From NCBI GenBank assembly GCA_018883125.1, contig VEQR01000021.1:1-42661 (forward strand): DNA of 42,661 bases. The letters are read 5' to 3'. Origin of the DNA: Candidatus Kapaibacterium sp. Lineage in GTDB: Bacteria > Bacteroidota > Ignavibacteria > Kapaibacteriales > Kapaibacteriaceae. Positions 6,586 to 42,661 of this stretch are shown in pieces (within the stretch, counting starts at the first letter, position 1; every line of letters starts with the position of its first letter). The position numbers and the translations under genes are program-made. Under the pieces are notes generated by a model that saw only the letters and a list, made by a program, of their open reading frames with translations, searched no databases and had not been told where the DNA came from.

Positions 6586-8289
6586 CTACCTCGTTACCCG
6601 CAGCTGATGCGTTGTCGATGATTGCTTGCCACTCTTTAGGACGTAGCGAAGCACATAGCTGCCTGAAGCTAGACCGCTCGTTTCGATGACGGTTTCCGTC
6701 GCGTCATTTGTCGCTTTCGAAACGACAACAGCACCAAGCTGATCATACACAATGATATGATCAATGGGGTCTGCTGAACGAACGGTGACGTGTTCATACG
6801 CCGGATTTGGGTAGACCACGACGCCACTTATGGCAACCTCTGCAACATCTGTCGGTGGAGGAATAACGACGAACTGGCCCATCATGCCCTCGTCTTCGTG
6901 CAATGCGATGTGGCAATGGAACATATACGGATGGTCGGCATCAGCGAAGTTCTCAAATCGGGCAATGAACCTCACTGTTTCGCGGGCCTTCACGAGGACG
7001 ACGTCCTTCCACCCCTGTTCGTAGGCCGGTGGTTGAGCACCGTTGCGAGTGAGAACGTTGAACTCGACATCATGGATGTGGAAGGGGTGCGCAAAGTTTC
7101 CAGAATTGGATATCTCCCAGATCTCCACGTTGTCAAGGGGCACGCGGTAGTCGATGTAGTCCATGTTGAACAAACGGTGGTTCAACAGGAATGTAGCCCC
7201 CGGGATGCCGGGAATCATCGTGTCGGAAATGGTGAGCTTGCGCGTAAGCATCGCAAGCGTTGCCTGATGCGGTTGTACGGTGACGAGGCTCTGGGGAGTG
7301 GTTGTTACCGGATTATCGGTTGGATCGCCAACTATGATCCGAAGAAGGTTGAAGTCTTTGCGTGCGAGTGCGTTACGAAATGGCTCCACGGGAATCACGT
7401 CACCACCCGGGATGTTCTGCGCCAGTGTGGAATTGAACGCTGTGAGATAGAAGCTCTTCCCTTTGTCTGCCGTCATATCTACGAGGATCTCAACTCGTTC
7501 GCCCGACGAGAGAAGCAGACGATCGACCTCCACCGGCCTCTCAAGGAGTCCGCCATCACTGGCAATGATGCGAAGCTTGCGACCATCGCTGAAACCGAGG
7601 TTATATGAGCGCTCGGTTGATGCGTTAAGAATGCGAAACCGCACAACTTGTGCCGGAGCGTTCCATTCGGCGCGCAGCACGCCGTTGACTTGCGCCGAAT
7701 CACCATACGGCACGTCTGAGATCTGCTGTGAAGCATCAAAGGCTCGGTCAGACAATGCAAGGGGAATATCATCAATGCCGTATCGGCGTGGCAGATTCAG
7801 AGCAGCCTCTTGTTCATCGCGAACGATGATCATCCCGCCCAGCCCCATAAGCAATTGCTGTTGTGCCATGTGATGAAGGTGCGGGTGATACCAGTAGGTG
7901 GCCGCATGGTTTTTAACCTCCCAGTAAGGTCTCCATGTCTGACCGTCCTTGATGACCTGATGCGGACCACCATCCATGATCGCCGGCAGGTGCATGCCGT
8001 GCCAGTGCACGGTTGTTTCCTCACCAAGATTGTTGGTCACGTTCATGCGCACCGTATCGCCTTTGCGGAAGATCAACGTCGGTCCCCAGAACGCCCGCCC
8101 CGTGGTCTCAACATTGAAACCCGCGGTCATGGTCTGCGCTTCACCAAAGAAGTGCATGTGGCCGGGGGCCATTGTCAGATTGAACTCCGGACCGGCCAGC
8201 GTATCGGGGATCCATAGGGGGTTACCCGTCTGTGCATGGGTGGTGCTGAAGGTCAGTGCAACGAGAAGGCAGGCAACGAATAGGCGCAT
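6586..8289 (-). CDS. Multicopper oxidase (CotA/FtsP-like) with T9SS sorting domain
   Basis: Copper motifs 'HWHGMHLP', 'WYHPHLHH', 'HPFHIHDVEF', 'FHCHIALHEDEGMMG'; C-terminus 'VVVYPNPAYEHVTV...GSYVLRYVLKSG'. Confidence 0.9.
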   Translation of the reverse strand: MRLFVACLLVALTFSTTHAQTGNPLWIPDTLAGPEFNLTMAPGHMHFFGEAQTMTAGFNVETTGRAFWGPTLIFRKGDTVRMNVTNNLGEETTVHWHGMHLPAIMDGGPHQVIKDGQTWRPYWEVKNHAATYWYHPHLHHMAQQQLLMGLGGMIIVRDEQEAALNLPRRYGIDDIPLALSDRAFDASQQISDVPYGDSAQVNGVLRAEWNAPAQVVRFRILNASTERSYNLGFSDGRKLRIIASDGGLLERPVEVDRLLLSSGERVEILVDMTADKGKSFYLTAFNSTLAQNIPGGDVIPVEPFRNALARKDFNLLRIIVGDPTDNPVTTTPQSLVTVQPHQATLAMLTRKLTISDTMIPGIPGATFLLNHRLFNMDYIDYRVPLDNVEIWEISNSGNFAHPFHIHDVEFNVLTRNGAQPPAYEQGWKDVVLVKARETVRFIARFENFADADHPYMFHCHIALHEDEGMMGQFVVIPPPTDVAEVAISGVVVYPNPAYEHVTVRSADPIDHIIVYDQLGAVVVSKATNDATETVIETSGLASGSYVLRYVLKSGKQSSTTHQLRVTR

Positions 8290-8467
8290 GGAACGGGAGA
8301 GTCACTGAGTGAAGATTGGCGTATGAAGAGGAGCAGACTGCTCCGGAAGCAAGAACCTCTCAAGCGCAATTCGTTACACCAACCGTATGGTGATCTGCAA
8401 GGTATGCGAGAGTACATCGGTGCATCGTGATGCACGCTGGCGATGCGATAAGCCCCTTTGGTGAATG

Positions 8468-10246
8468 TCAGGGGGCCTTTGGTGTGCCCTGTTGTGCTGC
8501 AATGAGACCTTTGATCTCAGCTAGTGCCTGTTGAGTGATCGGTTCATCGGGCTTCTTTTCAACAGAGACGGTGAGATCTTCAAGAGCCCGCTGCAATTGT
8601 CCTACCTGGAAGTAGGAGATGCCTCGGGCACGATATACCTGGTAGTCGGTCTGCCCCTGATTCATCGTTGTCGTAAATGCATCTATTGCCTCAGCATGGC
8701 GCGACAGATACTGAAGTGCCACACCATACGCTCGGTAACTGTCGGCGTGGTTGACCCGTGCCCTGGAAAGGACGGCGAGATCGGCGGCACCGCGCTCGTA
8801 CTGCTGGGTCTTGATGTAGTGGATACCTCTGTTGCTGTAGGCGTAAAGAACACCCTTTTTGACGACGATATCGCCACCATCGGTGGACCGGAATTCATAC
8901 GGGTATTGCTCTATCACATCCGTCCAAAGTATCTCGGAATTCTTCCATACACCAATACGATCATTGCTGAGCCAAGCCATGGCGATGCCGATAACGCCAA
9001 TGGCAGACAAGGCGATAAGGGGCGAGCGCATCCGCGAAGCGAGGTGCTGTACTCCAAGACCGATGACGATGAAGAAGCCGATGTAGGGAACGTAGGTGTA
9101 GCGATCCGCCATTGAGGCGCCCCCTACGGAGATCACCTGCAGAACCAGTGACGCGGTGATGAAATAGAATGCTAAACCAAAGACGATCGTGTTCCAGACT
9201 GTTCCTCGGGATCGTCGCCACGCTACCACGAAACCGACAACAGTGAGTACCATCAAGACGGCCCCTGCAATCATGAAGAACGGGGTGTTGCCTGGGCGGA
9301 GGTCATTCGGATATGGATAGAATGCGGAAAGGTGAACGGGCAAGATCAGCTTATAGAGGTATTGAACGACGCCGTAGCCGGCAAACACCAAGCGGTTTGC
9401 AAGTGAATACGTGGTCGTGTCCACAAGGCCGACACTTGCTGACGACTGAATCGAAAGGACCATAAGACCGAACGCAATCGAAATGGCCATAAGAGGAAGC
9501 TTTTCCACCACGGGACGCACCCACCCCTGCCGGAATCTTCCAACATACATGTCGATTGCCAACAGAAGCACCGGCAGCGTAAGTGCCATCGGCTTGGATA
9601 GACACGAGAGGAGAAACAGCAGCACGGTTGCGCCGTAGGTTAACCATGCCGATGTACGCGTATACCGCACATAGGCAATGCAGGCCAAAAGGTAGAACAG
9701 CGTGTACAGAACATCCTTGCGTGCCGCGGCCCAGGCAACACTCTCAACGTGCATAGGATGTACTGCAAACAGAAGCGCCGCAGTAAAGGCCAGCGGAACA
9801 CTTCCGTTGAACATCATCATCATGAGCACGAACACGAGAACGGCGTTCACCGTGTGCAACGCCAGATTCGTTTGCATGAATGACTTCATCGTCATGCCCC
9901 CTCGCTCAACGTCGATAGCCAGAGAGAGCATGGTCAGCGGATGGTAGTTGGCAGACACGGTGGTCTTCGTGTCGAACATCTCCCGTATGCTCTTCTTGGA
10001 AACTGACTCAACAAGCGGCTGCTCGGTGATGTAGTAGTCATCATCCCAGTTCACGAACTGCTTCGATTCGTCGAAGATGGGCTGATAGCAAACAAGCGTG
10101 AGCAACACCACGAACAGGATGGAGCCCAGAGCCCATGGATTTTGCCACGTTCTGTGCGGTTGTTGCATTCGGGATGGTTGCGAGCTCTTCATGGGGCTAT
10201 CCAATACTCCACATTGCTGGTGCGCTTGGGTGAAAGGAAACCGCAA
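8468..10246 (-). CDS. Polytopic membrane protein with C-terminal TPR (TMTC/PMT-like)
   Basis: Many hydrophobic segments, 'FVNWDDDYYITEQP', 'AVHPMHVESVAWAAARKDVLYTLFYLLA', then TPR-like repeats. Alternative start at 10192. Confidence 0.7.
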   Translation of the reverse strand: MRFPFTQAHQQCGVLDSPMKSSQPSRMQQPHRTWQNPWALGSILFVVLLTLVCYQPIFDESKQFVNWDDDYYITEQPLVESVSKKSIREMFDTKTTVSANYHPLTMLSLAIDVERGGMTMKSFMQTNLALHTVNAVLVFVLMMMMFNGSVPLAFTAALLFAVHPMHVESVAWAAARKDVLYTLFYLLACIAYVRYTRTSAWLTYGATVLLFLLSCLSKPMALTLPVLLLAIDMYVGRFRQGWVRPVVEKLPLMAISIAFGLMVLSIQSSASVGLVDTTTYSLANRLVFAGYGVVQYLYKLILPVHLSAFYPYPNDLRPGNTPFFMIAGAVLMVLTVVGFVVAWRRSRGTVWNTIVFGLAFYFITASLVLQVISVGGASMADRYTYVPYIGFFIVIGLGVQHLASRMRSPLIALSAIGVIGIAMAWLSNDRIGVWKNSEILWTDVIEQYPYEFRSTDGGDIVVKKGVLYAYSNRGIHYIKTQQYERGAADLAVLSRARVNHADSYRAYGVALQYLSRHAEAIDAFTTTMNQGQTDYQVYRARGISYFQVGQLQRALEDLTVSVEKKPDEPITQQALAEIKGLIAAQQGTPKAP

Positions 10247-10297
10247 GATCGCTCAACAGATGAACTGCTGCAACGGATATGATTTGCCGATACAGCA

Positions 10298-11065
10298 ATG
10301 TCTCTCGGGTACTTCATAGTTTTGTGCGTGACTTCACCACGTTACGCTCGATTGATCTCTGGGTTAGTCTTCATACTTCTGCTGACTGTAAATGCCGTCG
10401 GTCAGCAGAACTTTTTCAATGTACCGAGCTCCGATATCACAGAACGCACCAAGGTATTCTTTCAGCAACAGTTCAATCTGTTCAGCAACAGCTGCACAAG
10501 TAACTCCACATTCTGTTATGGCGTTGGGCAAGGGACAGAAATCGGTGTTAACGTACTGGGCGTCTCCTATGACTTCGCTCAGAGAACGATGGTTGCGAGT
10601 CCGAAGGATGAGCAACCCGTGTACCCATCATTTGGGCTGAATGCACAGAAACTCTTCGAACTCTCCGACGTCTATGCTTTGTCGGTCGGTGCACAGCTGT
10701 TGTTCCCGCGGCAAGCTCATCGTTACGAATGGTATGCATATCTCAACAATCGAGTCGAGCTTCATCGATTGAAGCTTATCCTCGGCCTCTACGGAGGAAA
10801 CGATAACTACTTCGACAGCGAGCCACGCTTCAGTGGTTCGAATCGCTCGCTTGGTGTTCAGGCCGGTATCGAGTATGAGTTGATTGCCGATCGCATCTAT
10901 CTGCAGGCAGACTACCTCACTGGTCGAACAGCCCTGAGTAATCTGATTGTCGGAGGTGCCATCAAGGTCACGCAGTCCTTGTTTCTTTCAGCAGGATATC
11001 AGCTTCCAAACAACGTGCAAACATCCGCGAAGGGGCTGGTGCTTGAGATTACCTTCGTTGAGTAA
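10298..11065 (+). CDS. Putative outer-membrane beta-barrel protein
   Basis: Hydrophobic N-terminus ending VNAVGQQ, alternating amphipathic strands, terminal 'LVLEITFVE'. Confidence 0.5.
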   Translation: MSLGYFIVLCVTSPRYARLISGLVFILLLTVNAVGQQNFFNVPSSDITERTKVFFQQQFNLFSNSCTSNSTFCYGVGQGTEIGVNVLGVSYDFAQRTMVASPKDEQPVYPSFGLNAQKLFELSDVYALSVGAQLLFPRQAHRYEWYAYLNNRVELHRLKLILGLYGGNDNYFDSEPRFSGSNRSLGVQAGIEYELIADRIYLQADYLTGRTALSNLIVGGAIKVTQSLFLSAGYQLPNNVQTSAKGLVLEITFVE

Positions 11066-34331: not shown

Positions 34332-35606
34332 TCACCGAACCTTAAGCATTGTGCTGGAACGCACCGTACCCGTGAAGACTACCATCATGTAGTTGCCGGT
34401 CGGCAGTCTTGAAACATCTACCGAACCAGTATTGGATGTGGCAACTTCCTGACCAATGAGGTCATAGACCACGGCCTGGTCGCCGTCAAACAACACGGTT
34501 GTGCTTGCGGGATTTGGCCAAATGCGCAAAGATGGTTCGTCGGCTTCGTCAACCGTCGTGTTGCAAGGAAGGGCATTGATGTATCTCCAGATTTCATCGT
34601 CAAATCCGCTGATAGCGGCTGCGACTGTATCAGCAGGGTTGCCCAGGCGCACCACGACCATGCGCTGACTTGGCACCACGTACACACGCTGATCGTTCTT
34701 GCCCATGCCGGCGTACATGTCTTTGGGTGCTGACGGCACAAGGTCCCGCGGATAGACAAATGGAATTGACGGCTGCATAAAGCTTCCCTTACCGTTCAGC
34801 CAGTAGAGGTAACCGTAAGACTTGTTAAGCTGTTGCGAAGTGCTGATCATCGCATTGAAATACTCGCGATCCGTGATGATGGTGTCGCCGTTCCAGACGC
34901 CCCCTGCTAAGAGCATCAGACCAAAGCGAGCCATGGCAAGGGGCTTTGACCAGAGTGTTCCGTTGATCCAAAGGCCGGGCATTGCAAGGGGCTTGGCCAG
35001 CTTGGTGCTGTAATACGACTGATACGTAACGCCAGTGGCCTTGGCTACCATGTCCTGAAGGAGCAAGTAACAGGCATTGTGGTAGTCCCAGATGGTTCCG
35101 GGTTCGGCCCTGTAGGTTAGACATTCGGGCTTTGTACAATCATCATTGCTTCTCTCAAAGCCGATTCCGGTTGTCATGGTCAAGTGATGGCGGACGGTGA
35201 TCTTCGACTCCTGCTGCGGTGTGCAGGATGACCAATTGCTACCGAGGTAGGTGGCGCTGGACTTTGTGATGTCCAGCAGTCCTTCGCGCTGAGCAACGCC
35301 AATCAACACCGACGTCACGGTCTTTCCGGCCGATGCCCAGTACCACACGCTGTCCTTGGTGAACGTTCCGAAGTATCGCTCGAAGGCAATCTTCCCATCT
35401 TTCAGAATGATCAGGGCCTTGGTGTCCGAGCGCTGGCCGTAGCTCACAAGCGAGTCAAGCTTCTCCGCACACCACCCGAGTTGGGAAGGGGCTATTCGTT
35501 CCCACGCATCGTTACTGGCGGGAGGGAAGTACAGAGGTTGTGACGCTGCATTTGCGGCAGCAAGTACGAGCAGTAAGAACAGTGATCGCATACGATGCTT
35601 GTTCAC
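34332..35606 (-). CDS. Serine hydrolase (class C beta-lactamase-like) with T9SS sorting domain
   Basis: 'VWYWASAGKTVTSVLIGVAQREGLL', 'HHLTMTTGI', C-terminus 'SLRIWPNPASTTVLFDG...GNYMMVVFTG'. Confidence 0.85.
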   Translation of the reverse strand: MNKHRMRSLFLLLVLAAANAASQPLYFPPASNDAWERIAPSQLGWCAEKLDSLVSYGQRSDTKALIILKDGKIAFERYFGTFTKDSVWYWASAGKTVTSVLIGVAQREGLLDITKSSATYLGSNWSSCTPQQESKITVRHHLTMTTGIGFERSNDDCTKPECLTYRAEPGTIWDYHNACYLLLQDMVAKATGVTYQSYYSTKLAKPLAMPGLWINGTLWSKPLAMARFGLMLLAGGVWNGDTIITDREYFNAMISTSQQLNKSYGYLYWLNGKGSFMQPSIPFVYPRDLVPSAPKDMYAGMGKNDQRVYVVPSQRMVVVRLGNPADTVAAAISGFDDEIWRYINALPCNTTVDEADEPSLRIWPNPASTTVLFDGDQAVVYDLIGQEVATSNTGSVDVSRLPTGNYMMVVFTGTVRSSTMLKVR

Positions 35607-35688: not shown

Positions 35689-36366
35689 ATGATCATGTTC
35701 TCCGGCACGCACTGGGCGGTGCTCGTTGTGACGTGTCTCCTCTGCATTACCATGCCGGTGTGGGTGCGTCAGCGTCCAGACAAAGCTGACGTCATCCGCC
35801 GGACGTTGGCATGGACCCTCATCGTAAACATCGTGATCTACCAGTTCTATCGCATTGCCGCCGGGTACTGGTCTGCCTCTACAGACCTTCCAATGCATCT
35901 CTGCGCTTGGGCGAATGTGGTGACGGCTCTCGCCCTGCTTACCCGGAAGCCCCTTTTCGCCGAGATCGCTTGGTGCTGGGGGATGACCGGCAGCGTAAAC
36001 GCACTGATTACGCCACAGCTGGACAATCCCTTTCCTGAGGTACCATTCATCTACTTCGTTATCGGCCACACGGGGCTTATCACTGCAGTCTGTACCATCG
36101 TCTTCGGATTTGACATCCGTCCACGTCCTGGTGCATGGCTCCGAGTGATGGTTGCCTCACAGGTGTACTTTCTCAGCGCCATCGCCGTGAATGCCATCAC
36201 CAACGCAAACTATGGCTTCCTCGATCCAATGGATCCGTTTCGAAATCAAACCGTCCTTGCGGCCTTCCCTAACGATGGTATCTGGTTCTACGTGACATTT
36301 GAATTGGCCGGTGCTCTGCTGTTTGGGCTGGTGCTATTGCCGTTTCGGTATAGCGAGAAGAGATGA
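35689..36366 (+). CDS. YwaF/TIGR02206-like integral membrane protein
   Basis: Six to seven hydrophobic segments, 'LPMHLCAWANVVTALALLTRKPLFAEIAWCWGMTGSVNALITPQL'. Confidence 0.7.
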   Translation: MIMFSGTHWAVLVVTCLLCITMPVWVRQRPDKADVIRRTLAWTLIVNIVIYQFYRIAAGYWSASTDLPMHLCAWANVVTALALLTRKPLFAEIAWCWGMTGSVNALITPQLDNPFPEVPFIYFVIGHTGLITAVCTIVFGFDIRPRPGAWLRVMVASQVYFLSAIAVNAITNANYGFLDPMDPFRNQTVLAAFPNDGIWFYVTFELAGALLFGLVLLPFRYSEKR

Positions 36367-36487
36367 TTACTGATTACTGATGACTGATTACTGATGACTG
36401 ATTAGATGACTGATGACTGATGACTGATTACTGATTGCTGATGACTGATTGCTGATGACTGATTGCTGATGACTGATGCCTGATTGC
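36363..36487 (-). repeat. Degenerate 7-bp tandem array (ACTGATT/ACTGATG/GCTGATT)
   Basis: About 17 units starting at the stop codon of the membrane-protein gene. Confidence 0.95.
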
Positions 36488-36491
36488 CGTC

Positions 36492-36511
36492 ATTCCCCCG
36501 GAAGTGGGAAT
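36492..36511. repeat. ATTCCC-N8-GGGAAT inverted repeat (dRS3-like form)
   Basis: ATTCCCCCGGAAGTGGGAAT read directly. Confidence 0.6.
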
Positions 36512-36549
36512 CCACTGACAACAGACGAGAGCTAGCGTGCCCTTAATAG

Positions 36550-36569
36550 CCCCGGGCCTTGGCCCGGGG
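36550..36569. repeat. Perfect palindrome CCCCGGGCC-TT-GGCCCGGGG (REP-like)
   Basis: 9-bp perfect stem with 2-nt loop. Confidence 0.7.
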
Positions 36570-36586
36570 TACGAGATACGGCAGCG

Positions 36587-36638
36587 TTATCAGTAATCAG
36601 TAATCAGTCATCAGTAATCAGTCATCAGTAATCAGTCA
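36587..36638 (+). repeat. Degenerate 7-bp tandem array (AATCAGT/CATCAGT), inverted relative to 36363-36487
   Basis: About 7 units ending next to the stop of the di-haem peroxidase gene. Confidence 0.95.
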
Positions 36639-36645
36639 CCAATCC

Positions 36646-37716
36646 CTACGGCATCCGATACAACGGATTCGTCAGGAACTGCTCATCTGTAAGCGTTTTC
36701 AGGAAGGCTACGAGGTCGGCCTTATCCTGGGCGTCAAGCTTGAGACCCGGTGCAAGATTGAACTGCATCAGCGCATCAACGGTAGAAGAGCGACGCACGC
36801 CGATGTTGTAGAAATCGACAACCTCTTCGAGTGTTTTGAAGCGACCATCATGCATGTAGGGGGCGGTTCGGGCGATGTTGCGCAGCGTGGGGACGCGGAA
36901 CTTGGCACGGTCACTGGCAAGCCCCGTCACGCGTTCGCGTCCGAGGTCCAGAAACATCGCGTCGTCATCGAGGCCGTTGTTCATGAATCGGTCATTGGTG
37001 AAAAACGGTGCTGCGTGACAATGGAAGCACTCGGCACCCTTTTTCTTGTAGGTCGGATCGAACTCGCGCATGAACAGCTGACGTCCGCGTTCCTCCGTTT
37101 CGGATAGCACGGCATAGCCTGCAAGGGCACGATCGTATTTGCTTTGTCCCGATATCAGGATCAGCATGAACTGCTCAAGGGCGATGCCGATCCGTTCCGG
37201 CGTAATGCTATCAGAGCCGAAGGCGCGGGTGAACATTGAGCGATACATGCTTGACGTTGACAGCTTCCTGACGACGTTGTCGAGTGTCTCGTCCATTTCC
37301 AGTGTATCAACGATCGGGTGTAATGCCTGATCCCGAAGCGTTGGAGAGCGACCATCCCAGAAAAAGCCACGGTCGCTCCAGGCAAGGTTCACGAGTGCCA
37401 TAGCCTGGCGTGTTCCGGGAAGTCCACGAACGCCGATACTGTATTTGCGATTGTCCGAGAATGCGGCTGCCTGAGAGTGACACGTTGCACAGCTCTGCGT
37501 ACCGGTCCGGGAAAGCTGTCCGTCGTGGAAGAGTGTTCGACCCAAGCTGACCCGTGTCTGTGTCAGAGGGTAATCCGTTGGCAGGATCGGCTCCGGCAGA
37601 TCTTCAAATCGAACCGGATACGGAGTTTCATCCAAAGTGATCGGCACATCGGGATCGGTACATCCGACTACGATCGCAGCGGCGATGACGAAGAGAATAA
37701 TGCAAAGGGGCTTCAT
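36646..37716 (-). CDS. Di-haem cytochrome-c peroxidase / MbnH-like lipoprotein (paralogue 1)
   Basis: Lipobox VVGC; two haem motifs CATCH and CFHCH; 'RVSLGRTLFHDGQLSRTGTQSCATCHSQAAAFSD'. Confidence 0.9.
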   Translation of the reverse strand: MKPLCIILFVIAAAIVVGCTDPDVPITLDETPYPVRFEDLPEPILPTDYPLTQTRVSLGRTLFHDGQLSRTGTQSCATCHSQAAAFSDNRKYSIGVRGLPGTRQAMALVNLAWSDRGFFWDGRSPTLRDQALHPIVDTLEMDETLDNVVRKLSTSSMYRSMFTRAFGSDSITPERIGIALEQFMLILISGQSKYDRALAGYAVLSETEERGRQLFMREFDPTYKKKGAECFHCHAAPFFTNDRFMNNGLDDDAMFLDLGRERVTGLASDRAKFRVPTLRNIARTAPYMHDGRFKTLEEVVDFYNIGVRRSSTVDALMQFNLAPGLKLDAQDKADLVAFLKTLTDEQFLTNPLYRMP

Positions 37717-38738
37717 GGACGAAACCGAGGATTGGTGGTGAATCGATCGTCGGTGAGGGCCAGCAAAAATGCTTCGAGATCATCACATTCCGAAGCCGAG
37801 AGGTTCAATGGTTTCAGAAGCATGTCCTTGTTTGGGTGTGGATAGCCCCCTGAATTGTACCGTTGAATGACGACGGTCAAGGATGCTATGGAGCCGTTGT
37901 GGAGGTAGGGCGCTGTACGACCCACATTCCGCAGTGATGGAACACGGAACACTGCTTCATCGGACGCGTTGTTTGTGAGCCGTGCCCGCCCCCTGTCAGC
38001 ATACGACTCCAAGAGTCCGTTACAGGCCATACGGTTATTCGTATAGAGCGGTCCACCATGACACGTTCCGCAGCCAACGCGATGGAAGATTTCCTTACCG
38101 CGGCGTTCGGCATCAGAGAGACGGCCTTCATCAGCGCGCGATCGGCCACTTACCAGCGTCCGCTCGAATGACGCGATGGCGCGGGTGATGACCCAGATGT
38201 CCAGCGGACGTGAATAGGCCCAACGACTCATCTGCTGAAGCGCACTGTCCACCGAGAGCCGGCTCACCAGGAAAGGGGCTTCCAGGTCAAACTCTGCATG
38301 TTCCTGGATGGGAACCAGGATCTGCATTTCCAATGTGGGGACGCCCCCTTCACGCATCAGTGCCGGCAGATAACCCACATTGGCCAGGGAAGGGGCGTTG
38401 CGGACGCCCATACGTCCGGACGTGCCGCGTGATGTTGGCAGACCGTCGGTAAAGGCCTTGGCAGGATCGTGGCATGTGCCACAGGAAACGTCGTTGGCGT
38501 TCGACAAACGCAAATCATAGAACAGGCGTTTACCGAGAGCAACACGCTCGGGTGTTGGGACGTTATCGGGCGGGTATGTCTGCTCGGCAAATCCCGGAGG
38601 AACGTCAACAAGGGGCTCCGCATCAGTGGCTGATTGCGGGTCAACAGCGCATGCCGTTAGAACTGCGGCTGCCAGAGTGGCCAGCCACACGCGATATCTA
38701 GCGAACGATAACAAGCAACTCGTGGCGGATGCTGCCAT
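37713..38738 (-). CDS. Di-haem cytochrome-c peroxidase / MbnH-like lipoprotein (paralogue 2)
   Basis: Two CGTCH motifs; 'RVALGKRLFYDLRLSNANDVSCGTCHDPAKAFTDG'; 4-bp overlap with paralogue 1. Start at internal Met (MAASATS..LTAC) preferred over 38771. Confidence 0.9.
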   Translation of the reverse strand: MAASATSCLLSFARYRVWLATLAAAVLTACAVDPQSATDAEPLVDVPPGFAEQTYPPDNVPTPERVALGKRLFYDLRLSNANDVSCGTCHDPAKAFTDGLPTSRGTSGRMGVRNAPSLANVGYLPALMREGGVPTLEMQILVPIQEHAEFDLEAPFLVSRLSVDSALQQMSRWAYSRPLDIWVITRAIASFERTLVSGRSRADEGRLSDAERRGKEIFHRVGCGTCHGGPLYTNNRMACNGLLESYADRGRARLTNNASDEAVFRVPSLRNVGRTAPYLHNGSIASLTVVIQRYNSGGYPHPNKDMLLKPLNLSASECDDLEAFLLALTDDRFTTNPRFRP

Positions 38739-39648
38739 CGGCGCGCCGGAGAATAACACTGTAGGTACCATTTGGCAGGGTGCTCACCGAGAGAAGCGGT
38801 GAACCGGCTGTAATGGACGCAGACAGAACGGTGGCTGAGGACATGTCTGAGATACGGACCTCCACAACATCGGTTTGTAGCTGCACAACATCGGTGGCAG
38901 GGTTTGGAGCAAGCGAAGACGTACGCTCGTCGTCGGCTTCAACAGAGGTGGTGATGCCCGGGGAGTATACCGCGGACCCCATGTTGCGCATCAGCGTGAT
39001 CGCCTCGTCGGTGCTGCCATGCATGATGAGCCCCTTGGACACATCAATGGTCTCGAGTAGGCGTCCGTAGTCAGCCCGCAGCGGAACATCGAGTCCGACT
39101 GCCGTGCGGGTGGACGAAGCGGCGCAGGCAACGCGGGTGTACAAGGCATCGTCGAGCGTATGGATCTGAAAGCCCGCCGTGAGCTTTGACTCCGATGTGC
39201 CAGCCATTCCCTCATAGGTCACAAATCGATAGCCGGCAGCCCATCCCCAGTGCATTGATGGCGTCTTCAGGGCCAGTGGGTGCCATTCCGGATATGTCGT
39301 GGGGTCAAGGTGATTCCGGTCTTTATCCACCCCGATGAAGAAGGTGATTGAATCCACGGATCCAACATCGAGGTCGCCAAGCGAATACCGTTGCACTTCC
39401 TTTACATCCACCAAGATGTAGGTGTCTGGAAGGGGCGTGTGCTTTTCCCCGTCGTGGTGGATCGTGATCTGGGAGATGTAGTAGCGCAGCAGCTCCGGAC
39501 GGTAGAATGACCCCGCACGAATGCCCGGATAGACCGATCCGAGTCGGAAAGGGGCTTTCCCATTCACCCCGTCCAGCACGAGAGTTACATCAGTGCTTCT
39601 GGCAACAGTGGCTGTCAGCAAGAGTAGAAGAAGAATTCGAGCGGTCAT
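38698..39648 (-). CDS. MbnP-like protein with T9SS sorting domain
   Basis: 'FYRPELLRYYISQITIHHDG', 'DSITFFIGVDKDRNHLDP', 'MHWGWAAGYRFVTYEG'; C-terminus 'SLAPNPATDVVQL...GTYSVILRRADG'. Confidence 0.8.
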   Translation of the reverse strand: MTARILLLLLLTATVARSTDVTLVLDGVNGKAPFRLGSVYPGIRAGSFYRPELLRYYISQITIHHDGEKHTPLPDTYILVDVKEVQRYSLGDLDVGSVDSITFFIGVDKDRNHLDPTTYPEWHPLALKTPSMHWGWAAGYRFVTYEGMAGTSESKLTAGFQIHTLDDALYTRVACAASSTRTAVGLDVPLRADYGRLLETIDVSKGLIMHGSTDEAITLMRNMGSAVYSPGITTSVEADDERTSSLAPNPATDVVQLQTDVVEVRISDMSSATVLSASITAGSPLLSVSTLPNGTYSVILRRADGSIRHELLVIVR

Positions 39649-39780
39649 GTACGCCTCGGTTTATCAGGATATCCACATCTGCGGACAAAAACACCGACGA
39701 AACTACGCTAGGTTCCGCCTATCTGACGCGTGGATGCGTATTTTCCACGTAACCGCTTATTTCAATGTTGGGAAGGCCGT

Positions 39781-42661
39781 ATGAAGCGCTTTCTACCCCT
39801 GGCGTTCATTGCCACGCTCGTCGTCGCTAATCTTAGCGCACAAGACATTACTACCCTACTAGGTCGACGCGAAGCGCGCACAGAACTGCAGAACCTCTTC
39901 ACAACGCTATCGCGTGGTGAGGTATTCTCGAATTCAGAGGTTCCCTCGGTGCCTCATGAAGCGTCATTCGTGAGCATTGACCAGAGTCTGTTTCAGCAGG
40001 CGCGGCAGCTTCCGGACAACATCCCGTTCAGCCTGACGGTAAATCTTCCCGGCATTGGCCCTGTCCAAGCCATCGTTGCCCGGTATCGTGTTATTGACGA
40101 AACAACGGAGCTGCTTGCGATGACCGATGATGGGCCCGTGAAGATCCCGGCTCCGCAAAGCGTTCTCATCCGGGGTTTCATACCGTCGATGAAGGGATCG
40201 TTTGTGGTTGCCGCGATCTATTCTGATTATGCCACCGGAATGATCACAACCGGCGCTGATAACGGAGATCGCACGTTTCTGATAAGCCCCCTGAAGATCG
40301 ACAAGCCTCAATCAACAATGGTCATCTACGACCAGTCGCTCGTGCCGTCGCGCAATGAATGGGCCTGTCATGCGAAGGAGCCGGAGAACTTTGACGCGCG
40401 CATCAGAGAAAGAAAACAATCCGAGAATTCACAGGTTCGGTATCGTCAGATCAAGATCGCCCTTGAAGGTGATTTCGACTACTATATCGATCACAATAGG
40501 GACCTCGCCAAGGCAACGAAGTACGCAGAGTCTGTCGTGGCTGCCTCAAGCGCTATTTACGAGCGTGATGTCACCGCAACGTTGATCATCGCTCAGCTCA
40601 ATATCTGGACAACAAATGACCCCTACACAGGAACGAACACAACAACACTGCTGGGACAGTTTGCCAATCGGTGGACGGCCAACTTTGGGAATGTGAATCG
40701 CACGCTGGCGCACCTATTGTCGGGAATCAATGGCATTGGAGGTGTAGCCTATCTGGAGACCATGTGCAACAAGCAGTATGGTTACGCCGTAAGTGGACTG
40801 AACAACAACATCACGTACCCGGCTGCCGGGTATGTGTGGGACACGGACGTGTTCTCGCATGAAACTGGTCACAATGTCGGTTCGCCACACACCTTTAACT
40901 GTGGCTGGGCTCCGCCGATCGATTCCTGTGTTGCGGCTGAAGGGGGCACATGCTACACGGGCACCAAAGCCGTCAAGGGGACGATCATGTCCTACTGCCA
41001 TCTGACGGCTCAGGGGACAAACCTGCTCTTTCACCCGAGGGTGATTGCCGTGATGCAGAACCGGCTTCAGAACGATGCTTGCACGCCCCTTACGTATGAA
41101 CTTACCGTGAAGATTGCCGACACTGTTCGCGCGTGTCGGAATGGTGATAAGATTGTTTCAGCTACCGCTACAGCCGGAGCCGAGCCGTACACCTATCGTT
41201 GGTTCAGTTCGTACTTCGACACGGTTACGACGGTGAATTCATTTCTCATCAAACAGCCACGCAATTTTTCCTTCTTTGTCGAAGCACGCGATGCCGTTGG
41301 AAACGTCGCCAGAGACACCTGCGTGATGACAGTGTTTGAGCCTCCGCAGGCAAAGCTTAAGACAGCTTCGACGAAGCTGTGTTCAGGGAAAAGTGCTGAC
41401 ATCCAATGTGAGATCACCGGAGGTAAACAGCCGTTTTCCTACCAGTGGCTTCGTAACGGGCAGCTCGTTGCCAATGTAGGTGAATTCTATTCGCAGCGTG
41501 TGGACGACGCAACCCGCGTATCGGTGATCGTTACCGATGGGAATGGTTGTGCGGATACAGCCAATCTCGATCTGAAGCCCTATGACTTTCAGATGACCTT
41601 TCAGCCGGCGTCGATCACCATGCCGCAGCTACCGCCGTGTAAGAACTCATTTCTGCAAGAGTACACTCTGAGAAATACTGGGGCCGATACCATTGTGATA
41701 GACTCGGTAAGTTCTGGTGCTGCGATCAAGCCTACGATGCAGTTGCCGATCACCATCGTGCCCGGAGCATCGGTAAAGGTGCCGATCACGGTGACGGTGC
41801 GCGGTACGGGAACGATCCGAGATGACATTCTCTTTCTCGAAAAGAACTGTCGCTGGCGATTCCGAACGCCCGTGACCGGACAGCGGAGCCTGCCAAAGAT
41901 CTTTTCGGCTCTCCCGTTCGACCTCGGGACGAAGATCCTTTGTGATTCCGCCACTCCGCGGACGATCGTCCTTGGTTTCAACAACCCGACCTCCTTCACG
42001 ATGAGATTCTCTGCCGTGTACGCAAAGTCAACAGGCACAACCGTGGCTTTTGATAGAGCCCCGTTCGTGCTGCCTGCCGGCGCTGACCGGTCGGCGTTGA
42101 TCAATCTCACATCAGCACTGCCCGCGGGTACCTATACCGACACGCTGACCTTGACCTATGAAAGCGACGGTTGCGAGGGATCGTTCACAGCTCCGATCAT
42201 CTATCGGAATGCGCAGGTGAAGATCACGAATCCGACTGCGGTGAATTTTGATACGGTGAAGTCGGACTCCAAGCCGATTGTGCGAACGCTTCCGATATCA
42301 GCAACGTTTACCGGTGCACCTTCCGCAACGGTGCAATACGTTGAGATCACTGATCCGTTTGTGACATCGATGAAGCAAGGCCTTGTGTTGCCGAATGGCA
42401 AGACGACGAACGTTACCGTGACACTTGATCCAAAAGACATCACTGCGGGTGGTGTGCTTAAGGGTACGCTTCGATATCTCGTTGATTCGTGCGCCGCCCC
42501 TTACGATATCCAGCTGACCGCCAACGTGGTGGTGGTTGGCGTCGATGAGGATAAGGGGGCTGACGCGGCCCGTATCAGTGTGAGCGATGACGGTATTGTG
42601 GTGTCCGATGCACGCGGTCGCGTTGAGGTGTACGATCTCCGTGGACAGCTTGTGGCAAGTG
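39781..42661 (+). CDS. Secreted zinc metalloprotease (HExGH, reprolysin-like) with Ig-like repeats; truncated by window end
   Basis: MKRFLPLAFIATLVVANLSAQ; 'DTDVFSHETGHNVGSPHTFNCGW', 'GTIMSYCHL'; C-terminal part enters 'ISVSDDGIVVSDARGRVEVYDLRGQLVAS' (sorting-domain-like). Confidence 0.88.
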   Translation, partial: MKRFLPLAFIATLVVANLSAQDITTLLGRREARTELQNLFTTLSRGEVFSNSEVPSVPHEASFVSIDQSLFQQARQLPDNIPFSLTVNLPGIGPVQAIVARYRVIDETTELLAMTDDGPVKIPAPQSVLIRGFIPSMKGSFVVAAIYSDYATGMITTGADNGDRTFLISPLKIDKPQSTMVIYDQSLVPSRNEWACHAKEPENFDARIRERKQSENSQVRYRQIKIALEGDFDYYIDHNRDLAKATKYAESVVAASSAIYERDVTATLIIAQLNIWTTNDPYTGTNTTTLLGQFANRWTANFGNVNRTLAHLLSGINGIGGVAYLETMCNKQYGYAVSGLNNNITYPAAGYVWDTDVFSHETGHNVGSPHTFNCGWAPPIDSCVAAEGGTCYTGTKAVKGTIMSYCHLTAQGTNLLFHPRVIAVMQNRLQNDACTPLTYELTVKIADTVRACRNGDKIVSATATAGAEPYTYRWFSSYFDTVTTVNSFLIKQPRNFSFFVEARDAVGNVARDTCVMTVFEPPQAKLKTASTKLCSGKSADIQCEITGGKQPFSYQWLRNGQLVANVGEFYSQRVDDATRVSVIVTDGNGCADTANLDLKPYDFQMTFQPASITMPQLPPCKNSFLQEYTLRNTGADTIVIDSVSSGAAIKPTMQLPITIVPGASVKVPITVTVRGTGTIRDDILFLEKNCRWRFRTPVTGQRSLPKIFSALPFDLGTKILCDSATPRTIVLGFNNPTSFTMRFSAVYAKSTGTTVAFDRAPFVLPAGADRSALINLTSALPAGTYTDTLTLTYESDGCEGSFTAPIIYRNAQVKITNPTAVNFDTVKSDSKPIVRTLPISATFTGAPSATVQYVEITDPFVTSMKQGLVLPNGKTTNVTVTLDPKDITAGGVLKGTLRYLVDSCAAPYDIQLTANVVVVGVDEDKGADAARISVSDDGIVVSDARGRVEVYDLRGQLVAS

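Follow-up and report, generated by a model that had tools for sequence, protein, structure and literature searches.

MbnH, a di-haem enzyme, is said, in work attributed to Manesis et al. 2021, to oxidise the first Trp of a WxW motif in its partner MbnP to kynurenine, a step required for Cu(I) binding. In the window, the 42,661-nucleotide stretch of Candidatus Kapaibacterium DNA analysed here, a gene for an MbnP-like protein with a T9SS tag adjoins two genes for di-haem enzymes. The locus raises the question of what two such enzymes would do for one MbnP, and where the three proteins would act.

Cassette layout and the MbnP-like protein

We confirmed three tightly packed open reading frames on the minus strand, in the order first described: MbnP (38698..39648; 316 residues, with a signal peptide and no lipobox), MbnH-A (37713..38771; a lipoprotein of 352 residues) and MbnH-B (36646..37716; a lipoprotein of 356 residues). 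The two enzyme genes overlap by 4 nt. The overlap between the MbnP and MbnH-A genes is 74 nt with the listed ATG of MbnH-A; an alternative start, TTG at 38714, leaves an overlap of only 17 nt and gives a tidy lipoprotein signal, MLSFARYRVWLATLAAAVLTA-C. The gap downstream of MbnH-B (36364-36638) is taken up by tandem repeats of seven bases (TGATGAC / ATCAGTA).

The MbnP-like protein matched PF20243 with an E value of 7.6e-26 and 91.6 bits (cut-off 27), and this match and a profile search of relatives placed the MbnP domain at residues 19-205 (39034..39594, minus strand). Its AF2 model has a pLDDT of 93.6, and the six best PDB matches of the model in Foldseek were all 7l6g, the solved MbnP (E 1.8e-7, prob 1.00). 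The score against NCBIfam TIGR04052 (MbnP_like_WxW) was 35.8 bits, below the cut-off of 140; judged by these profiles, the window MbnP is outside the equivalog and inside the wider Pfam family. A profile search found a single MbnP in the window genome.

Alignment with the GMAWNW stretch of 7l6g identifies the WxW motif as M132-H133-W134-G135-W136 (39241..39255, minus strand), in which W134 is the predicted kynurenine and M132 a predicted copper ligand. The alignment pairs a further predicted ligand, H163 (39160..39162, minus strand), with the MVH His of 7l6g; H163 is invariant, and is present in the Methylocystis parvus MbnP too. Across 87 relatives W134, W136, M132, H163 and H210 were conserved at 100% and H133 at 99%, values that for MHWGW are partly built in because the 80 relative loci were picked by a pattern containing this motif; this does not affect the members that the profile search recovered in the window's family and phylum. 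No other conserved Trp was found among the 87, and the set of conserved His residues is enlarged (65, 123, 133, 163 and 210). The target Trp is present and invariant as W134, and the protein is a probable copper-binding protein by these residues.

The preliminary description had given MbnP a T9SS sorting domain, and this holds. A type A C-terminal sorting domain at residues 247-316 (38701..38910, minus strand) exceeded the TIGR04183 cut-off in a genome search (25.0 vs 23 bits), and the tail of the model matched the T9SS C-terminal domains 8qb1 and 8gl6; the Por_Secre_tail score was below the Pfam cut-off (24.2 of 27 bits). SprA and 88 T9SS tails are encoded in the 2.9 Mb genome, whose closest named relatives are Kapabacteria/Ignavibacteria MAGs. 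With a signal peptide, a sorting domain and SprA in its genome, MbnP is predicted to be T9SS cargo. The tail motif recurs in 84/87 MbnP relatives, and no credible lipobox was found among them.

Two MbnH-like enzymes and the residue between the haems

Both enzymes matched CCP_MauG (E 4e-38 for MbnH-A, 3e-51 for MbnH-B), and the best solved relative of both was 6e1c, the Methylosinus MbnH (E 1.7e-38 and 1.8e-50), which was also the top fold match of the MbnH-A model (TM 0.79). TIGR04039 (MbnH family di-heme enzyme) was the best NCBIfam match for both, at 212 and 234 of 363 bits; on this measure MbnH-A and MbnH-B are MbnH-like and outside the equivalog. Identity with MauG was rejected, the TIGR03791 cut-off being missed at 154 and 183 of 444 bits. 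With PF20243 in MbnP and both enzymes nearest to 6e1c, the assignment to an MbnP/MbnH-type system is supported.

Each enzyme has two CxxCH haem sites on the minus strand: C97-G-T-C-H101 (38469..38483) and C234-G-T-C-H238 (38058..38072) in MbnH-A, and C76-A-T-C-H80 (37477..37491) and CFHCH (37015..37029) in MbnH-B. The low-spin (E) haem ligand was Met in 4/4 CcpA references; the corresponding position is Y305 in MbnH-A (37857..37859; Tyr in 74/75 A-type enzymes) and Y303 in MbnH-B (36808..36810; Tyr in 70/70 B-type). The residues for peroxide cleavage are kept, with two CxxCH sites and the distal Glu in all and the Gln in 70/75 A-type and 70/71 B-type proteins.

In a tree of 238 proteins, built without the columns around the inter-haem site, the A-type (79) and B-type (70) enzymes formed one clade each with 99% support, and both lay with MbnH, away from CcpA. 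A smaller first tree had grouped A loosely with methanotroph MbnH (89%). Classical CcpA peroxidases are ruled out by the Tyr at the ligand position and by tree placement, and with W134 invariant the locus is not a CcpA pair beside an MbnP that has lost its target. The two enzymes are related, as the word paralogues in the preliminary description implied, but they are 42% identical and not recent copies: a recent tandem duplication is rejected by the separate 99% clades, and on the tree A and B are an ancient split into different MbnH lineages. MbnH-like genes also occur outside this arrangement. One family-wide clade (L071, G000:C68:63490-63930, and relatives) has no adjacent MbnP, and the L071 enzyme carries PYMASGDSDKGP in place of PYMHDG. 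On a Methylocystis parvus plasmid, an MbnH-like gene (L085:3884-5044) is annotated 'MATE transporter MbnM', which is likely a naming error.

A fixed difference lies between the haems. MbnH-B has W120 (37357..37359, minus strand) in the sequence FWDGR, at the position of MauG Trp93 (a numbering verified by a count from His35), and Trp was found there in 70/70 B-type enzymes. MbnH-A has R140 (38352..38354, minus strand) instead; Arg occupies the site in 70/75 A-type enzymes and Trp never does. The Trp is common but not universal, as judged from its occurrence in 70/82 other MbnH-like proteins. In MauG this residue has been reported as critical for the bis-Fe(IV) state (PMC6405878), and MbnH-A, which is without it, may therefore be a weaker oxidant. 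BthA of Burkholderia (6nx0) has Ser257 at the site where A has Arg, yet it reaches a bis-Fe(IV) state of unusual stability, so function may survive without the Trp; BthA is a longer protein of another family, and a partnership with MbnP is not stated for it in that paper (PMC6405878). The replacement of this Trp by Arg in A appears to be new.

Lipoboxes are present in both enzymes (LTA-C41 in MbnH-A, VVG-C19 in MbnH-B), which agrees with their original description as lipoprotein-like; by a simple rule, they were found in 57/68 A-type and 48/67 B-type relatives. At least two acidic residues at +2 to +7 after the lipidated Cys occurred in 40/48 B-type and 21/57 A-type proteins, and in 5/22 lipoproteins taken from the same loci as a small control set. 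In the window, the sequences after the lipobox are CTDPDVP in MbnH-B and CAVDPQSATD in MbnH-A. Acidic stretches of this kind are similar to the surface-export signal of Bacteroidetes (PMC5080379), and by this resemblance B may sit on the outer face in many relatives, a hint at the level of a motif. The localisation of MbnP, A and B is likewise read from motifs.

Distribution and proposed maturation of the trio

A genome scan gave 407 relatives of this MbnP, of which the best 80 loci were analysed; incompleteness of metagenome-assembled genomes may hide genes in the counts that follow. Both enzyme types accompany MbnP in 58 of these 80, in the order MbnP-A-B at 47 and MbnP-B-A at nine; of the remaining two, one has an extra upstream MbnH-like gene and in the other B is cut by a contig end. 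The other loci comprise MbnP-B (9), MbnP-A (8), two MbnP with A (1), and cut or bare loci (4). The relatives span Kapabacteria, Saprospiraceae, Flavobacteriales and others, and a T9SS-MbnP was also found in the cultured Phaeocystidibacter luteus (L174/L210) and Acidiluteibacter ferrifornacis (L164). Within the genus, MbnP, A and B were side by side in 5/5 sampled genomes with this MbnP, the window's included. The three-gene arrangement, at 5/5 and 58/80, is far beyond chance, and the cassette is widespread in Bacteroidota; an oddity specific to one locus is rejected by the same 58/80.

The two enzymes are not equally independent. A occurs without a true B in five genomes (G059, G232, G307, G309 and G311). 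Eight of the nine genomes with an MbnP-B locus have an A-type gene elsewhere (six confirmed at loci, two by score only); in two of the six, A stands alone in the stretch read, and in the others it lies beside a T9SS-type MbnP. Genomes with A and no true B thus exist, but B is hardly ever seen without A; this pattern suggests A as the core partner and B as an accessory. Solitary A-type genes are seen at L207 (G304) and L208 (G305), with no adjacent MbnP in the stretch read and the T9SS-MbnP sitting with B. At another locus (L061 of G109, 6875-10671) the order is P'-B-P-A, with B next to a lipoprotein-type MbnP of its own and A next to a T9SS-type one. The pairwise distances among P, A and B are equally well correlated (0.75-0.77), and therefore do not indicate which enzyme is the closer partner of MbnP.

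With moderate confidence, we read the cassette as encoding a T9SS-exported kynurenine-copper(I) protein that would be matured mainly by MbnH-A, with MbnH-B as a second enzyme. At least one of the two probably oxidises a Trp of MbnP, enabling it to hold copper. What follows on kynurenine, copper binding, the sequence of steps and the parts played by A and B is inferred. MbnP would enter the periplasm via its signal peptide and fold. The lipoprotein MbnH-A, with peroxide at its two haems, would turn the leading Trp of the WxW motif, W134, into kynurenine, and this residue, M132 and H163 would together form a Cu(I) site. T9SS would then carry the folded MbnP out of the cell, where it would stay attached to the surface or be released and could capture or sequester copper. 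MbnH-B would cooperate with A, either by completing or refreshing that oxidation or by acting on MbnP that is already outside. A more specific version is tentative: A would oxidise its partner without the Trp relay, using Arg instead, and B, with the relay, would act at a different step or place, possibly the surface, in a T9SS-routed system widespread in Bacteroidota. The division of labour suggested in the preliminary description has become likelier through the deeply separate, co-conserved clades and the fixed inter-haem difference, but the role of each enzyme is something we infer.

The assignment of the main oxidation to A could be reversed, B with its inter-haem Trp making the kynurenine and A serving as a helper, be it a peroxide scavenger, an electron shuttle or a docking partner for MbnP. 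The canonical FWDGR relay, kept in 70/70 B-type enzymes and lost in A, and the reported importance of this Trp in MauG (PMC6405878) speak for such a reversal; we nevertheless consider it unlikely, given that A stands without B next to an intact T9SS-MbnP in G059, G232, G307 and G309, that B is almost never without A, that A keeps both haems, the Glu and the Gln, and that BthA works with Ser for Trp (PMC6405878).

Alternatively, A and B might each have a target of their own in MbnP, such as W134 and W136, or a neighbouring His or Tyr, to give a doubly modified copper site. MbnP does have exactly two invariant Trp and the enlarged His set, and the two enzymes are conserved together, with fixed differences between them. 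Ordinary MbnP proteins served by a single MbnH also have both Trp of WxW, however, and no MbnP column was found to covary with the presence of A or B among P-A, P-B and P-A-B loci, so we regard double modification as rather improbable. A separate partner for B is a further thought: B would belong to a second MbnP (P'), be retained in the operon by history and have no action on the T9SS MbnP. The P'-B-P-A order of L061, the separate P-A and P'-B-like pairs of G041, and the separate P-A and P-B loci of G297, each with its own T9SS MbnP, fit this idea. Its probability is low, since the window genome has one MbnP and yet an intact MbnH-B, 81% identical to that of the nearest relative, and the commonest form is MbnP, A and B with no second MbnP at the locus. 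That A and B are plain H2O2-reducing peroxidases protecting the surface, beside an MbnP that binds copper without kynurenine, is very unlikely even though the superfamily includes peroxidases and the peroxide-cleavage residues are kept, given the Tyr rather than Met ligand, the tree position with MbnH away from CcpA, and the strict linkage of A and B to a WxW MbnP.

Known systems and genomic neighbourhood

MbnP and MbnH of Methylosinus trichosporium OB3b (7l6g, 6e1c) have the same folds as the proteins described here. The OB3b MbnP likewise has WxW, a Met two residues before it and a conserved His, its MbnH is a di-haem enzyme with Tyr at the low-spin ligand position as in A and B, and the genes lie side by side, as the window trio does. 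In OB3b they belong to methanobactin operons with one MbnH and no T9SS tail on MbnP, whereas the window has two MbnH and a tail, and the Arg of MbnH-A sets it apart from the OB3b enzyme. Ordinary Bacteroidota pairs (such as L006, L010 and L020) also have MbnP followed by MbnH, but mostly with a lipoprotein MbnP, no T9SS tail and one enzyme.

CorA/CorB of Methylomicrobium album BG8 and MopE/SACCP of Methylococcus capsulatus resemble the proposed system in having a surface or secreted kynurenine-Cu(I) protein. CorA and MopE are co-transcribed with a MauG-like di-haem protein (PMC3912023, PMC3423442), are reported not to be markedly similar to MbnP in sequence, and bind copper through a Kyn-x-His motif and a distant His (PMC3621798); they differ from the window trio in having a single di-haem partner and no T9SS tag. 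Of the surface-exported variant first proposed for the locus, the T9SS-built MbnP stands, but surface export of a kynurenine-copper protein is already known from CorA and MopE, and the new parts are for that reason the T9SS route and the second enzyme. This route, with two conserved enzyme types, appears to be new. Among the papers searched we found none joining MbnP with Bacteroidetes (the PNAS 2021 and JBC 2019 MbnP/MbnH papers lay outside the scope) and none joining T9SS with copper and cytochrome c peroxidase. The cassettes would extend the kynurenine-copper idea beyond methanotrophs, to Bacteroidota that are common in water and soil, and would add a defined export route and, through neighbouring genes, a connection to copper efflux. 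They also offer many natural A/B pairs that differ at the residue thought to relay charge, so the need for this residue is directly testable.

The link to copper efflux comes from the relatives. At 24/80 loci, a gene for a CusA/CzcA-type efflux protein, CusB, HYC_CC_PP or a CopZ-like protein occurs no farther than about 5 kb away. CusA alone does so at 7/80; our own estimate from genome density (about 1.8 over-threshold copies per about 3.4 Mb genome) would predict about 0.6%. No copper gene was found among the neighbouring genes checked beside the window's own cassette, which are those for a TMEM164-like membrane protein, a beta-lactamase-like T9SS protein and an M12-type metallopeptidase. 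The last (39730-42660, plus strand; M12/reprolysin-like) is divergent from MbnP and runs off the end of the window. The second is a beta-lactamase-fold hydrolase with a T9SS tail (34332-35606, minus strand); a relative of it comes right after B in about ten loci belonging to the same group, and because of this adjacency the hydrolase may belong to the operon there. Farther off, 28 kb from the cassette, a multicopper oxidase (6586-8289, minus strand) bears a T9SS sorting domain too (Por_Secre_tail E 4.4e-9), which makes it a second exported copper protein of the window and a possible client for surface copper. A related multicopper oxidase directly follows the cassette at one locus (L148).
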